Part shown: positions 11,652-15,980 of the stretch, one piece after another
Layout: every line of letters starts with the position of its first letter
Position numbering within the stretch: the first letter of the stretch is position 1
Source of the DNA: a virus
IMG/VR virus record: IMGVR_UViG_3300034175_000104
Location: 1-23,413 of that record
DNA length: 23,413 nucleotides
Strand: one strand, 5' to 3'
Translations under genes and position numbers: made by a program
Notes under the pieces: model-generated
Told to the model about the DNA's origin: nothing
The model's input: the letters and a program-made list of their open reading frames with translations, nothing else
Databases searched by the model: none

Positions 11652-12608
11652 ATGTCGATCGACATCATGAACAGACTTTGGTGGCGGGACATGGACGCCG
11701 ACGTCGCGGCGCTCGATCAAACGCGATACCCGGGCTCAGGTAGGAACCTGTTCTGGACGCTGATCGCGTTGGCAGACTCGTCGACGGATGAGGGGTTTGC
11801 GTGGCCGGCGGTGGCTACGCTGGCGCGCAAGTCGCGGCTCGGCAAGCGGGCGGTGCAAATGGCGCTCAAACAGGCGGAGGCGCTCGGCATGCTACGCAGG
11901 CGCGAGCGGCTCGACGCTTCCACGCAATACCTGTTCGTGTTGGAGCGCCTACCTCACGTGGCGCGACCGAAGAGGCCGAAGGAGCGAGGCCCGATCGAGT
12001 ATTTCGAAGAGGCCGAGAGCGACTTGTTCGAAGGGGATGCACAGGATGCACCCCATAAGCCAGCACCCGTGCATCCCACGACACTGACGGGTGAATCCCA
12101 CGACACTGACGGGCGCATGGGATGCACCCAGAATCATCATAGAATCATCAAGGAACCGTCATCTCTTTCGAGCGAAGACATCGCTCGAGAGTTTGCAGCC
12201 CGCTGGAATGCTCTGCACGACGAGGTTCCGAAGATCCCCGGCACGACGCAGTTCAGCGAAAGGCGTCGCAACCTGCTGCTCCGCCGCGTCGACGATCACG
12301 GCGAGTCGCCGACGCGCAAGCCAGCCAACGTCGAGGCGCTGTTCGACAAGCTGTTCGACGCGATCAGGGCGTCACGGTTTCTGCGCGGCGAGAAGAAAGA
12401 TTGGGCGATCAACGGCGTCGACTGGATCCTCAACGCGACCAATTTCACCAAGGTGATGGAGGGCTATTATGGCCGAGACTACAGCGCTGACGCTCACTCA
12501 GCCGACCCACATAATCGTAGCCACGTGGCGGCAGGACAGGAGGCTGTCCGTATTTTGCGCGCTCGCCGAGGAAGCGCCGGAGAGGGCGAAGGCGGACTTG
12601 CCCGCTGA
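11652..12608 (+). CDS. Winged-helix phage replication protein (origin-binding candidate)
   Basis: A 318-residue protein just 3 bp after the helicase gene, with GGAGG-type ribosome-binding sequence before ATG 11652. Residues about 25-100 are a winged-helix domain: FWTLIALADSSTDEGFAWPA, VATLARKSRLGKRAVQMALK, then a wing to residue 96. Such domains occur in phage replication initiators (lambda O type) and bind origin repeats. Residues about 100-170 form a Pro/His/Thr-rich linker whose DNA contains repeated motifs (12035-12150). The C-terminal part (170-280: FAARWNALHDEVPKIPG ... WILNATNFTKVMEGYYG) resembles C-terminal domains of phage replisome organisers. Role: binding the origin and recruiting the DnaB-type helicase, by inference. 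The end overlaps the next gene by 140 bp. Confidence 0.8.
   Translation: MSIDIMNRLWWRDMDADVAALDQTRYPGSGRNLFWTLIALADSSTDEGFAWPAVATLARKSRLGKRAVQMALKQAEALGMLRRRERLDASTQYLFVLERLPHVARPKRPKERGPIEYFEEAESDLFEGDAQDAPHKPAPVHPTTLTGESHDTDGRMGCTQNHHRIIKEPSSLSSEDIAREFAARWNALHDEVPKIPGTTQFSERRRNLLLRRVDDHGESPTRKPANVEALFDKLFDAIRASRFLRGEKKDWAINGVDWILNATNFTKVMEGYYGRDYSADAHSADPHNRSHVAAGQEAVRILRARRGSAGEGEGGLAR
12035..12150. repeat. Clustered repeats, candidate replication origin
   Basis: Inside the linker-coding part of the replication gene: GGATGCAC twice in direct tandem (12035-12042, 12044-12051), inverted GTGCATCCC (12069-12077), two identical 19-bp direct repeats ATCCCACGACACTGACGGG (12073-12091, 12095-12113), GGGATGCAC again (12119-12127), then two direct AGAATCATCA copies (12130-12139, 12141-12150). 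The last pair is AT-rich. This iteron-plus-AT-rich layout resembles the lambda origin, which lies in its O gene. Confidence 0.6.
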
Positions 12609-12951
12609 TTTGCGCGCCGCGTTGCCCGCGCTGATCGCCGACGCGCGGATGCGCTGCGGCCCGGCCGATGAGATGAAGTTGGCGTCGGAGCTTACGCAGA
12701 CGCTGTCGATGCTGGGCGGCCCGATGTCGCACGCCGAGCGGATCGAGTGGCAGGTCTCGATGCAGGACGACTTGCGCGACATCCCCGGCGATCTGGCGAT
12801 CGAGGGCGTGCGCGACGCGCGGCGCACGTGTCGCCGGCGTGAGGAAGTGCTGCCGCACGTGCGCGAATATGCCGAGGACTATCCCGCGCGCCGCCGCGCG
12901 CAGCTGCAGCGATTGATGACGCTCGCCACCGTGGCGGGGGTGCTCGCGTAA
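12469..12951 (+). CDS. Hypothetical phage protein, 160 aa
   Basis: A 160-residue protein from ATG 12469, with GGAGGG upstream at good spacing. It overlaps the 3' end of the replication gene by 140 bp, so 12469-12608 would encode two proteins. Residues about 30-155 are mostly helical (SVFCALAEEAPERAKADLPA, then a Met/Leu-rich segment and a basic helix RRTCRRREEVLPHVREY). It is in the right place for a replication accessory protein (such as a primase helper), but I do not recognise a family. The stop shares its last A with the methyltransferase start (TAATG). The start could be later in this frame; the ribosome-binding site favours 12469. Confidence 0.6.
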   Translation: MAETTALTLTQPTHIIVATWRQDRRLSVFCALAEEAPERAKADLPADLRAALPALIADARMRCGPADEMKLASELTQTLSMLGGPMSHAERIEWQVSMQDDLRDIPGDLAIEGVRDARRTCRRREEVLPHVREYAEDYPARRRAQLQRLMTLATVAGVLA

Positions 12952-14432
12952 TGGAGATGTTCAATGACATGGATCTACGTGCCCGGCCTGCCGACTGGCG
13001 ATTCATCGAACTCTGCGCAGGATCAGGCGGGCTCGGGCTTGCCCTCAAGCTCGCCGTGCCTGGAGCGCGTTGCGTCGCTTACGTGGAGAGGGACGCAGGA
13101 GCCGCCGCGCTTCTGGCTGCGCGCATGGAAGCGGGTGACTTGGCTCCGGCGCCTATCTGGTCTGACCTTGCCACCTTCGACGGTCGACCGTTCCGTGGCC
13201 GCGTTCATTGCGTCGCTTCCGGTGATCCGTGCCAGCCCAACAGCGTGGCCGGCAAACGAGCCGGTGCCGACGATGATCGGTTCCTCATCGAGCATGTTGC
13301 TCGAATCGTCGCTGAAGTCGGGCCTCCTTCTTTCTTCCGAGAGAACGTCACGGGGAATGCCGACGGGCAAATCGCCGCGCTCATCCCGCTTCTGGAAGCA
13401 ATGGGCCGACGCATTGCGGGCGGAATATGGAGCGCGAAAGGCTCTGGGAATAGTCACAACCGCGAGCGACTTTTCATCCTCGCCGAACTCGACGAGTTGG
13501 TCTCGAGCGGACTGGCGGACGCCGACGGCATTGGAAGTGCTGCATGGCCCGATGTCGCCGGAGATGCGCAGCGCGGCTGGGCAAACGGTGGCGCTGCAGG
13601 ATCAAGCGACCTATTGGGCCACGCCTCGCGAGGCGATGTGGCGCGCGCTGGGGAACGAGCGCTACATCACAACGAAGCGCGGGCAGGGCAATCTCGAAGA
13701 TCAGTCGACGGTGTGGCAGACGCCGGGCACGGACAGCTTTCGGTGTCGGGGCGGCGATCGGAAGGACGAGCAGGGTCTCGACCAGCAGGCGCGAACGTGG
13801 CCGACGCCGTCGGTGATGATGACCGGGGAGCGCACCTCGCCAGAGACGTTCGCCCGGCGGCAGGCATCGCTGAAGGCGAAGCACGGATCGAAGACGGGCA
13901 ACGGCGCGGGGCCGGATCTAGCGATGATCGCGAAAACATGGCCGACGCCGACGACCCGCGACTTCAAGGGGACGAACTCGAGCGAGCACGTGACGACGAA
14001 CAGCACTGGCGCGATGCACATGGATCAGTTGCCGAACTTCGTCGAGCATGGCGACCATTACGCGCGCCCGCTCCCAACGACCCTCTCTGGGCCGACGTGC
14101 TTGACGCCAATCCCCTTCTCGCCCCTGCCATCGGAAACCTCGACCAATGGGCCATTGCTCGCCGAGCTGCAGGCTTACCGGCGCTGGGCGGAGCGATCGG
14201 GCGGCGCGGCGGGATGGCGCGGGACTTGGACGCGCAGACCACGGCGCGTCTTAAATCCGTGGTTCGTGGAGTTGCTGATGCGCTGGCCGGCAGGGTGGAC
14301 CGATTACGCAACCTTGGGAACGGGGTTGACCCTGTGGCTGGATGCGACGCGTTCGTTCATCTCTCGGCTCTACTCGCAGAGGAGCGCAAGCGTTCGGCAG
14401 GGCAGTTTGTTCTGACAGAGACGGCGGAGTGA
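12951..14432 (+). CDS. DNA (cytosine-5) methyltransferase
   Basis: A 493-residue enzyme with class I C5-methyltransferase motifs in order: motif I FIELCAGSGGLGLAL (18-32), YVERD (44-48), motif IV GDPCQPNSVAGK with catalytic Cys94, motif VI ENV at 131-133, motif VIII RERLFILAE at 171-179, and near 455 the motif-X-like LRNLGNGVDPV. It would methylate cytosine C5 in a DNA target set by the variable region between motifs VIII and X. That region (about 185-430) is unusual: low-complexity, Asp/Ala/Gly/Arg-rich, with repeated ADA units (LADADG, VADAGHG, VADAVGD, MADADDP). The whole gene lies over a second long frame. Start at 12951 is coupled to the upstream stop; 12957 is an alternative. No cognate endonuclease is seen. 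Confidence 0.82.
   Translation: MEMFNDMDLRARPADWRFIELCAGSGGLGLALKLAVPGARCVAYVERDAGAAALLAARMEAGDLAPAPIWSDLATFDGRPFRGRVHCVASGDPCQPNSVAGKRAGADDDRFLIEHVARIVAEVGPPSFFRENVTGNADGQIAALIPLLEAMGRRIAGGIWSAKGSGNSHNRERLFILAELDELVSSGLADADGIGSAAWPDVAGDAQRGWANGGAAGSSDLLGHASRGDVARAGERALHHNEARAGQSRRSVDGVADAGHGQLSVSGRRSEGRAGSRPAGANVADAVGDDDRGAHLARDVRPAAGIAEGEARIEDGQRRGAGSSDDRENMADADDPRLQGDELERARDDEQHWRDAHGSVAELRRAWRPLRAPAPNDPLWADVLDANPLLAPAIGNLDQWAIARRAAGLPALGGAIGRRGGMARDLDAQTTARLKSVVRGVADALAGRVDRLRNLGNGVDPVAGCDAFVHLSALLAEERKRSAGQFVLTETAE
12964..14415 (+). CDS. Overprinted ORF with W-x-T-P repeats (possible second gene)
   Basis: A 483-codon frame, +1 to the methyltransferase, open over almost its entire length. 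Its ATG follows GGAG (12953-12956) by 7 bases, a better site than the methyltransferase has. Five W-x-T-P motifs occur: WRTP at residue 184, WATP at 218, WQTP at 251, WPTP at 279 and at 326. C-terminal features include LNPWFVELLMRWPAGWT. I recall similar W-P-T-P proteins in phages, but cannot verify this here. In ten sampled 60-base stretches, this frame had G/C at 83 of 100 third positions in the centre and right (73 of 100 in the left), against 58 of 95 and 62 of 95 for the methyltransferase frame. No function is known. Translation is suggested, not proven. Confidence 0.5.
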   Translation: MTWIYVPGLPTGDSSNSAQDQAGSGLPSSSPCLERVASLTWRGTQEPPRFWLRAWKRVTWLRRLSGLTLPPSTVDRSVAAFIASLPVIRASPTAWPANEPVPTMIGSSSSMLLESSLKSGLLLSSERTSRGMPTGKSPRSSRFWKQWADALRAEYGARKALGIVTTASDFSSSPNSTSWSRADWRTPTALEVLHGPMSPEMRSAAGQTVALQDQATYWATPREAMWRALGNERYITTKRGQGNLEDQSTVWQTPGTDSFRCRGGDRKDEQGLDQQARTWPTPSVMMTGERTSPETFARRQASLKAKHGSKTGNGAGPDLAMIAKTWPTPTTRDFKGTNSSEHVTTNSTGAMHMDQLPNFVEHGDHYARPLPTTLSGPTCLTPIPFSPLPSETSTNGPLLAELQAYRRWAERSGGAAGWRGTWTRRPRRVLNPWFVELLMRWPAGWTDYATLGTGLTLWLDATRSFISRLYSQRSASVRQGSLF

Positions 14433-14593: not shown

Positions 14594-15105
14594 TTGTCAA
14601 CGACGAGTGGATCGTGCGCCGCCGCGGAAGCGAATACCCGATTTACATCAGTTGCTGGGCCAACGTGTCCAGCTGGCTCAGTTGCCGTCGCGAGATGGGC
14701 CAAGACGTTAACGCCCTGTACGAATGGACGCAGCCGGCGGCGTGCGGCTGCTGCGCCCGCTGGCGACCGAGGGATGCGGTGCGCGAGGTGGCGTCGGGAG
14801 TGCATCGCTGCGAAAAGCACGTCGGCCGCCAGCCATGCTGCATAGTCGGCTGCGGCAAGACTTTCGCGATCCGGCCCGGCGACGATTACGAGGGTGAGAT
14901 GATGTGCGGCCGCCACTGGCGCCAAGCTCCGAAGCCCATGCGCGATCTCGAGCGACTGATCCGCCAGCGCGCCAAGCGCAAAGGGTGGAATGAGAAGCTA
15001 GTCCGGCAGCACTACTGGATCTGGCAACGCGCGCGCCGAGCCGTTGAGAAAGGGCACACCTTCGACATTACCGCGGTGAACAAGCTATTCGGGTGGGACG
15101 ACTGA
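14590..15105 (+). CDS. Cys/His-rich putative zinc-binding phage protein
   Basis: A 171-residue protein with about ten candidate metal ligands: Cys52, Cys54, Cys55, Cys74, His77, Cys83, Cys84, Cys88, Cys106 and His109, the last pair in MCGRHW. This suggests one or two zinc fingers or ribbons. The C-terminal part (about 112-171) is basic and helical (LERLIRQRAKRKGWNEKLVR), suitable for nucleic acid binding. I do not recognise a named family. It starts within the end of the 54-aa gene (ATGA) and its stop overlaps the Dam-type start, so it is co-translated with its neighbours. Confidence 0.7.
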   Translation: MIVNDEWIVRRRGSEYPIYISCWANVSSWLSCRREMGQDVNALYEWTQPAACGCCARWRPRDAVREVASGVHRCEKHVGRQPCCIVGCGKTFAIRPGDDYEGEMMCGRHWRQAPKPMRDLERLIRQRAKRKGWNEKLVRQHYWIWQRARRAVEKGHTFDITAVNKLFGWDD

Positions 15106-15980
15106 TGGCGAATATCCATCCTCGAAAGCACCGCCCGCTGATCCGCTACCACGGCGGCAAGTGGAAGATCGCGCTGTGGGTGCTCAGCTTTATCAACGCG
15201 ATGCGACATCGCATCTACACGGAAGCGTTCGGCGGCGGAGCGTCGGTGCTGATCCGCAAGCCGGCGATGAGGAACGTCGGCGAGATCTACAACGACTTGG
15301 ACGACACGCTCGTCCATCTGTTCCGCACCCTGCAAGATCCCGCGAAGGCCGCAGCGCTGGTGCGCGCGATCGAGCTTACGCCGTTCGCTCGATCGGAGTT
15401 CGATCTCGCCTACGAGCTCTGCGACGATGATGTTGAGCGCGCGCGGCGCACGCTGATCCGATCGTTCATGGGCTTCGGCAGCGACGGCACGACGGGAGAA
15501 TACAAGACGGGCTTCCGGCGCAATGTGACGTCGAACATGAAATTGCCGGCGCAGGAATGGGTGTCGTATCCGTCCGCGTTGCAGTTGATCGTGCAGCGTC
15601 TGAAGTCGGTAGTGATTGAGCAGACCGACGCCTTCGATCTGTTGCTCGAGACTGATAACGTCGAGACTCTGCATTACGTCGACCCGCCCTACCTGCCGTC
15701 GACGCGATCGCAGGGCAACCGCCGGCGCGGAGCCGGCTTCCATGTCTATCGTCACGAAATGACGGAGGAGCAGCACGTCCAGTTGCTTGCGCTTCTGCGA
15801 TCCCTCACCGGCATGGTCGTGCTGAGCGGCTACCCATCCGAGCTCTACGACGACACGCTGGCGGGCTGGGAGCGCGTAACGCGCGACGCACACGCCGATG
15901 GCGGCCGACCGCGCGTCGAAGTCCTGTGGTTCAACCCCGCAGCGATGGAGCGACTGCGTGAAGGAGCACGGCTATGCTGA
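15105..15980 (+). CDS. Dam-type (D12 class) DNA N6-adenine methyltransferase
   Basis: A 291-residue protein from ATG 15105 (an upstream GTG at 15093 is possible but unneeded, since TGATG couples it to the previous stop). Conserved motifs include the SAM-binding YHGGKWK (15-21) and EAFGGGASVL (40-49), the EIYNDLDD segment (60-67), and the catalytic DPPY (193-196). The family methylates adenine, often in GATC or a related site; the site cannot be read from sequence alone. With MT-A70 and the C5 enzyme it is the third methyltransferase of the window. It overlaps the GNAT-like gene by 7 bp. No matching restriction enzyme is encoded nearby. Confidence 0.93.
   Translation: MANIHPRKHRPLIRYHGGKWKIALWVLSFINAMRHRIYTEAFGGGASVLIRKPAMRNVGEIYNDLDDTLVHLFRTLQDPAKAAALVRAIELTPFARSEFDLAYELCDDDVERARRTLIRSFMGFGSDGTTGEYKTGFRRNVTSNMKLPAQEWVSYPSALQLIVQRLKSVVIEQTDAFDLLLETDNVETLHYVDPPYLPSTRSQGNRRRGAGFHVYRHEMTEEQHVQLLALLRSLTGMVVLSGYPSELYDDTLAGWERVTRDAHADGGRPRVEVLWFNPAAMERLREGARLC

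Follow-up and report, generated by a model that had tools for sequence, protein, structure and literature searches.

A phage C5-cytosine methyltransferase probably encoded as two overprinted chains, one catalytic and one for target recognition

In C5-cytosine DNA methyltransferases the variable region and motif IX belong to the small domain, which makes the specific contacts (PMC3404938). M.EcoHK31I (YGGCCR) is made of two polypeptides, the large chain carrying motifs I-VIII and X (PMC3404938, citing Lee et al. 1995) and the small chain motif IX alone (PMC3404938). M.AquI is another split C5-methyltransferase, with its catalytic and recognition halves on two chains (PMC3404938). A multispecific case is provided by BCE_0393, an enzyme of prophage origin that modifies about seven sequences (PMC3459991). 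The second frame of a phage methylase gene may itself be coding, since the ShiLan-domain is an HNH endonuclease hidden in such a frame (PMC11855218). In the open-licence literature we found no account of an overprinted methyltransferase arrangement of the type described here in phages. Annotated genomes contain few cases of long same-strand overprinting in which selection on both frames is strongly supported.

The present locus lies in a phage fragment of 23,413 nucleotides (IMG/VR record IMGVR_UViG_3300034175_000104, positions 1 to 23,413), the whole of which is referred to as the window. It consists of two overlapping frames, F1 and F2 (Table 1), and we consider it quite likely that together they encode one C5-methyltransferase as two overprinted chains, F1 being the catalytic one and F2 the one for target recognition. 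Re-reading of the window sequence confirmed the extents given in a first-pass annotation of this DNA, i.e. two frames on the same strand with starts 13 nt apart and ends 17 nt apart. The higher G+C content at third codon positions claimed for F2 was also recovered, at 83.6% against 58.6% for F1 between 13561 and 14220, and at 74.3% against 64.3% between 13021 and 13440 (true genes in the window have 74-87%), as was its better ribosome-binding site, the GGAG of Table 1. One DNA repeat indeed gives repeats in both frames: GTGGCCGACGCCGACGG is read as VADAD in F1 and as WPTPT in F2, and the VADAD repeat of F1 is the shadow of WPTPT. The position of the pair beside replication genes would fit a role in shielding phage DNA from restriction.

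Table 1. Features of the F1/F2 locus and other genes of the window (positions in the window)
Feature	Position	Strand	Remarks
F1, C5-cytosine DNA methyltransferase catalytic half	12951..14432	+	493 aa, ATG start
F2, overprinted partner, frame +1 of F1	12964..14415	+	483 aa, ATG start
Shine-Dalgarno-like GGAG	12953..12956	+	7 nt 5' of F2 ATG, inside first F1 codons
Motif I, LCAGSGG (F1)	13011..13031	+	sequence motif
Motif IV with catalytic Cys, GDPCQPNS (F1)	13221..13244	+	sequence motif
Motif VI, FRENV (F1)	13335..13349	+	sequence motif
Motif VIII, NRERLF (F1)	13458..13475	+	final ordered F1 part before linker
F2 module array	13513..14050	+	WxTP starts 13513, 13615, 13714, 13798, 13939
Motif IX, RRVLNPWFVELLMRWPAGW (F2)	14242..14298	+	profile comparison, actinophage and canonical motif IX
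Motif X, GNGVDP (F1)	14316..14333	+	sequence motif; region 461-480 pLDDT 93-94
DnaB	10014		window gene, upstream of pair
D12-class adenine-N6 DNA methyltransferase	15093-15980		close downstream of F1/F2 pair
GpA-type terminase	17576		window gene
Portal	19919		window gene
S49 protease	21459		window gene

M.EcoHK31I, set beside F1 and F2 by description and motif layout, is the nearest precedent. Its small chain is reportedly encoded in another frame inside the large one; if so, the principle dates back to 1995, and the novelty of the present case lies in how widespread it is among phages, in an overlap that is complete, in the modules and in the signs of selection. The likeness lies in motif IX being on the second chain and motifs I-VIII and X on the first (here by sequence motifs). 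The differences are that F2 overlies nearly all of F1, has a constrained N-terminal third and carries variable WxTP modules, that the cases found here are mostly phage or prophage genes, and that the target-recognition domain, predicted on the large chain of M.EcoHK31I (PMC3404938), is here apparently on F2. M.AquI resembles F1/F2 in having its halves on two chains, but its small chain carries both IX and X, like the actinophage pairs Kampy 78/77 and Float294 62/61 and unlike the window. The multispecific phage C5-methyltransferases (those of Bacillus phages, BCE_0393) are similar by arrangement, with several recognition units between motifs VIII and IX that would give several targets; these enzymes, however, are known with the recognition part in frame with the catalytic part. 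The ShiLan-domain shares with F2 its location in a second frame inside a phage methylase gene, but it is a local, mobile HNH insertion of patchy occurrence, whereas F2 covers the whole gene, is family-wide and has no HNH match. Phage ShiLan itself has, in one genome, both gp65, the methylase with the hidden HNH insertion (PMC11855218), and gp70, a frame-fused relative of the pair studied here. Paracoccus prophages have m5C enzymes of relaxed specificity that came into question as active relatives; they were set aside as probably of another family, since homologues are described as ~700 aa long.

The motifs I, IV, VI, VIII and X that the first-pass annotation had assigned to F1 were all located in that frame. 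F1 has what is expected of the large part of a C5-methyltransferase, namely motif I, motif IV with its PCQ, motif VI with ENV, motif VIII with RxR, and a fold of the large-domain type; this chain contains neither the variable region nor motif IX. Accordingly, its match to PF00145 (E 1.6e-19) covers only profile positions 2-165 of 324, i.e. motifs I-VIII; full-length chromosomal C5 enzymes of the same genomes match the profile to about 322. The AlphaFold2 (AF2) model of F1, computed with 90 relatives, is confident at about residues 12-190 and at motif X (RVDRLRNLGNGV), which is present and ordered; residues 193-367 have pLDDT <50 and form a linker predicted to be disordered. This model aligns with M.HhaI over 209 residues (Z 19.7, rmsd 3.9), and on this basis F1 is predicted to be a large domain without a small domain. 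The DNA of the F2 module array, when read in F1, gives the ADA-rich, predicted disordered linker.

F2 is made up of an N-terminal region of its own, the WxTP modules and motif IX. It contains exactly the five WxTP motifs first noticed, at residues 184, 218, 251, 279 and 326. Between these motifs lie segments ~30 residues long, and 380 such segments from 101 F2 proteins group into recurring families, some of the clusters being loose. An example is the family WGTPRASDxEKGGPNQxFGAGGxPLPAQAAQ, present at 28 loci. Module families are found at differing positions, pairs of families in both orders, and the number of WxTP motifs per F2 protein ranges from 0 to 8; related modules of variable number and order thus stand between motifs VIII and IX. 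Judged from their sequences, the WxTP segments would look like interchangeable target-recognition modules. Against PHROGs, the window F2 matched phrog_27243 (5e-16) and phrog_1008 (1.4e-7), the latter being matched by all 103 F2 proteins scanned. In Pfam none of the 103 had a match, on which ground an HNH endonuclease hidden in F2 was ruled out, and a PDB sequence search with the F2 profile gave chance hits only. The AF2 model of F2 alone (101 relatives) has a mean pLDDT of 58 and no confident fold; its comparison with the PDB gave two Foldseek candidates, neither of which reached Z >=2 with VIA-align.

Motif IX, which the first-pass annotation did not list, is in F2 and not in F1: a strict pattern scan of the window F1 did not find it. 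The consensus of the F2 C-terminus is RxLNPxFVEWLMGWPxGW. Pfam and PDB searches with the isolated C-termini returned nothing, and profile-profile comparison was required. With hhalign, F2 C-termini matched the C-termini of actinophage methyltransferases (probability 98%, P 6e-14), and these in turn matched Dcm and other canonical enzymes through motifs IX and X (probability 84%, P 7.6e-6). Compared directly, F2 and the canonical enzymes match weakly (P 0.007) in the same register (RRVLNPWFVELLMRWP with RRLTPRECARLMGF), so that the homology of motif IX in F2 to that of canonical enzymes is drawn through the actinophage bridge. Two actinophage proteins, gp70 of Mycobacterium phage ShiLan and gp5 of Gordonia phage MelBins, have the motif-IX segment in frame with motifs I-VIII, together with LPTP repeats and motif X; the first repeats remain in +1, as after an indel inside the array. 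Other actinophages have the two halves as separate annotated genes (Kampy 78/77, Float294 62/61, Lilbooboo 32/33, Dylan 7/6), and in several the catalytic half ends just past motif VIII, the remainder, including motif X, being in +1. When the strict motif IX pattern was scored in 236 methyltransferase loci, 171 had it in the +1 frame and 23 in F1, 42 being unscored. Most of the 23 are canonical enzymes whose +1 frame is short, the group medians for this frame being 401 codons when motif IX is in +1 and 85 when it is in F1; the remainder are frame-fused loci plus at least one probably spurious match (L050).

Indel-fused loci, in which the catalytic half is in frame with the F2 motif IX, are L168:796-1962 (ShiLan gp70), L164:613-2097 (MelBins gp5), L026, L058 and L060. 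In ShiLan and MelBins, where motif X is in that frame too, they amount to a natural single-chain version. At L060:2368-3357 the frame switch occurs at a CA-type microsatellite (HTHTHT), which suggests slippage, possibly phase variation or a recent mutation.

The overlap of F1 and F2 is not due to chance. When the synonymous codons of F1 were reshuffled 1000 times, 6.8 stops were expected in F2 and 0 were observed (p < 0.001); for the third frame the same reshuffling gave 19.5 expected and 18 observed. Over 120 nonredundant loci a mean of 4.1 F2 stops was expected and 0 observed, but these loci were pre-chosen for open frames, and the window itself and the annotated phages are therefore the cleaner tests of F2 openness. 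Site-class rates were estimated from 27 independent pairs. As in the logic of OLGenie, each possible change was assigned to a class according to whether it is silent in F1, in F2, in both or in neither; collinear neighbour genes served as the control. The ratio dSN/dSS, that of F1-silent but F2-altering changes relative to changes silent in both frames, was over all pairs 0.44 (0.35-0.55) across motifs I-VIII as compared to 1.02 (0.84-1.30) in the control; for the repeat and C-terminal regions it was 0.41 and 0.56, respectively. In the repeat region of close pairs it fell to 0.11 (neighbour genes 0.87), F2 dNN/dNS was 0.16 (neighbour genes 0.83) and F1 dNN/dSN was 0.78; differences at F1 codon positions 1, 2 and 3 were 0.173, 0.052 and 0.039, as expected of a gene whose reading frame is F2. 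Purifying selection thus restrains nonsynonymous change along the whole length of F2, a test that the first-pass annotation had proposed.

For F1, dNN/dSN indicates strong constraint over motifs I-VIII (0.18), moderate constraint in the C-terminal region (0.54) and hardly any in the repeat region (0.83), the control being 0.29: F1 is under purifying selection outside the repeat region and only weakly inside it. Shuffles synonymous in F2 predicted 458 F1 stops over 119 loci and none was seen, partly by construction, these being open-frame loci. Since the F1 linker is free of stops yet also nearly free in amino-acid sequence, its importance seems to lie in connecting F1 to motif X and not in its sequence. 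Both frames are thus open beyond chance and under purifying selection, with the exception of the F1 repeat region, which is kept open. The earlier reading of an overprinted gene pair is supported by these restrained F2 changes and by homologues free of F2 stops.

Searches with F2 gave 80 loci in IMG/VR and 69 in GTDB genomes, in prophages or phages of Alphaproteobacteria, Myxococcus, Acidobacteria, Chloroflexi and others; Sphingomonas and Rhizobium strains are among the carriers. At 158 of 158 loci (some of them redundant) the methyltransferase frame was on the same strand with an offset of exactly +1, and at all loci selected by F2, F2 was accompanied by F1 and never alone. Because the 158 loci were selected by F2, a selection by F1 only was added as a counter-check. 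Among L171-L195, the F1-selected viral loci examined had an open +1 frame with xTP in nearly all cases, the exceptions being L189 (motif IX without xTP) and L187 (both frames short). Annotated phages picked by F1 similarity had an open +1 frame in 9 cases out of 10; in Klebsiella phage BUCT711, gut phage C75C1, Paenibacillus phage Lilo and ct2t2046 it is open at 45-50% GC, with 13-35 stops in the third frame. The tenth, Streptococcus phage Bonnie, keeps motif IX in F1, its usual place, and its +1 frame contains 7 stops, which makes it a natural negative control. At ~15 loci a single ORF is matched by both profiles, which is consistent with single indels moving both frames, and F1 is broken by stops in only ~7 of all loci. 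Judged by sequence, the overprinted layout is common and recurs in phages of many hosts.

At the seven F1-broken loci (L053, L070, L098, L100, L105, L119 and L128) the F1 stops lie between motifs VIII and X and F2 is open; in 5 of the 7 the fragment with motif X comes with its own ATG.

In the window, the best-spaced GGAG belongs to the F2 start at 12964. The F1 ATG at 12951 shares bases with the stop codon of the gene upstream (TAATG), and alternative ATGs are present at 12957 and 12969. This upstream gene (12469-12951, 160 aa, no Pfam match) ends on the first F1 start, an overlap whose sequence suggests that translation may be coupled. Shine-Dalgarno-like sites precede the F2 start at 80 of 120 loci. 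A candidate start for F1 lies between -13 and +11 nt from that of F2 at 78 of 110 loci, and in 27 of those 78 exactly 4 nt upstream (GTGA or ATGA directly before the ATG). The start candidates of both frames commonly stand behind one Shine-Dalgarno-like sequence.

The first-pass annotation left F2 without a known function; motif IX and the module repeats now allow a specific inference, and these sequence features make F2 the probable target-recognition half of the enzyme to which F1 belongs. One messenger with two nearby out-of-frame starts would yield both chains. F1 would be the large catalytic domain, its motifs I-VIII joined to motif X by the disordered linker, and F2 would provide the small DNA-recognising part, in which exchangeable WxTP modules end in motif IX, together with an N-terminal region of its own overlying F1 motifs I-VIII. 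The two would assemble into an enzyme methylating phage DNA, whose target sequences, probably several, would be set by the F2 modules. Translation of both chains, their assembly, methylation and the role of the modules as target-recognition units are what we infer from the arrangement. Against this reading stands the constrained N-terminal third of F2, which is absent from the split actinophage versions and which the reading leaves without explanation, as does the weakness of the motif IX homology when F2 is set directly against canonical enzymes; moreover, F2 alone is modelled without a confident fold, a result that in itself tells neither way, and its model is without a match in the PDB. These same features, i.e. 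a constrained N-terminal third of its own and no confident fold, together with the lack of a Pfam match, would be accounted for if F2 were a real overprinted protein with a job other than methylation, e.g. anti-restriction or host control, using the methyltransferase DNA as a platform. We hold this to be unlikely, because F2 carries the motif IX that F1 does not have, because ShiLan gp70 and MelBins gp5 have the corresponding C-terminal segment within the methyltransferase chain itself, and because F2 is never found without F1.

Another possibility is that ribosomes shift from F1 to F2 after motif VIII, giving one chain from both frames, as the actinophages whose catalytic half stops there might suggest. 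But such a product would make no use of F2 over motifs I-VIII, where F2 is constrained; F2 owns a start codon, close to that of F1 at most loci; motif X returns to F1; the F1 linker stays free of stops, where ~4 per locus would be expected from F2 coding alone; and inspection of the F1 stops of split loci, by eye only, revealed no conserved shift site. A frameshift is thus improbable. It could also be argued that F2 is an untranslated by-product of high G+C content and F1 codon bias, a long second frame being not rare within one G+C-rich sequence. This has very little probability, since F1-synonymous changes that alter F2 are suppressed, and since F2 is open at moderate GC where the third frame is full of stops and is intact where F1 is broken. 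Finally, the ~15 loci with an ORF matched by both profiles could evoke a sequencing frameshift that splits one gene into an apparent two; the same +1 offset in finished phage genomes and in isolate genomes of several bacterial phyla makes such an artefact scarcely credible.

Returning to the enzyme of two overprinted chains, we lean slightly towards a broader proposal, in which it represents a large phage family crossing phyla, with fully overprinted subunits, modules shuffled in F2 and an F1 linker that is merely open. If true, this would be a specificity-switching enzyme encoded at double coding density and unrecognised as a system. If the two-chain reading is right, a large class of 'hypothetical' phage proteins acquires a role, the absence of motif IX from many phage C5-methyltransferases is explained and mislabelled families are corrected; cloning of the annotated frame alone may then yield an inactive enzyme. 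The pair would also be a natural test of how two overlapping proteins share constraint on one DNA.

In databases, the second half of the pair is called 'hypothetical' or is mislabelled. The suggestion of the first-pass annotation that gene callers would miss one gene of the pair does not hold entirely: for E. coli phage K1ind2 both are listed, ORF29 as a C-specific methylase and ORF28, which overlaps the methylase at +1, as 'Mte8-like'. PHROGs places F2-type proteins under phrog_1008, whose label is 'DNA methyltransferase', and under phrog_27243. These labels and 'Mte8-like' come without a stated role, unlike the link to motif IX made here for F2, and as far as we searched this link is new for the proteins concerned. 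The label 'DNA methyltransferase' is also borne by phrog_31772 and phrog_10223, which, like phrog_1008, match F2-type proteins, and it seems to have passed to them from the overlapping gene. It is the F2 frame that has been annotated as the CDS at L009:3004-4137 (Acidovorax phage Alfacinha1 gp46), L230:1176-2150 (Cronobacter phage JC01) and L163:1614-2567 (Salmonella phage SLP-22); Alfacinha1 gp46 and the SLP-22 gene are named methyltransferase, and the catalytic motifs are actually in the other frame.
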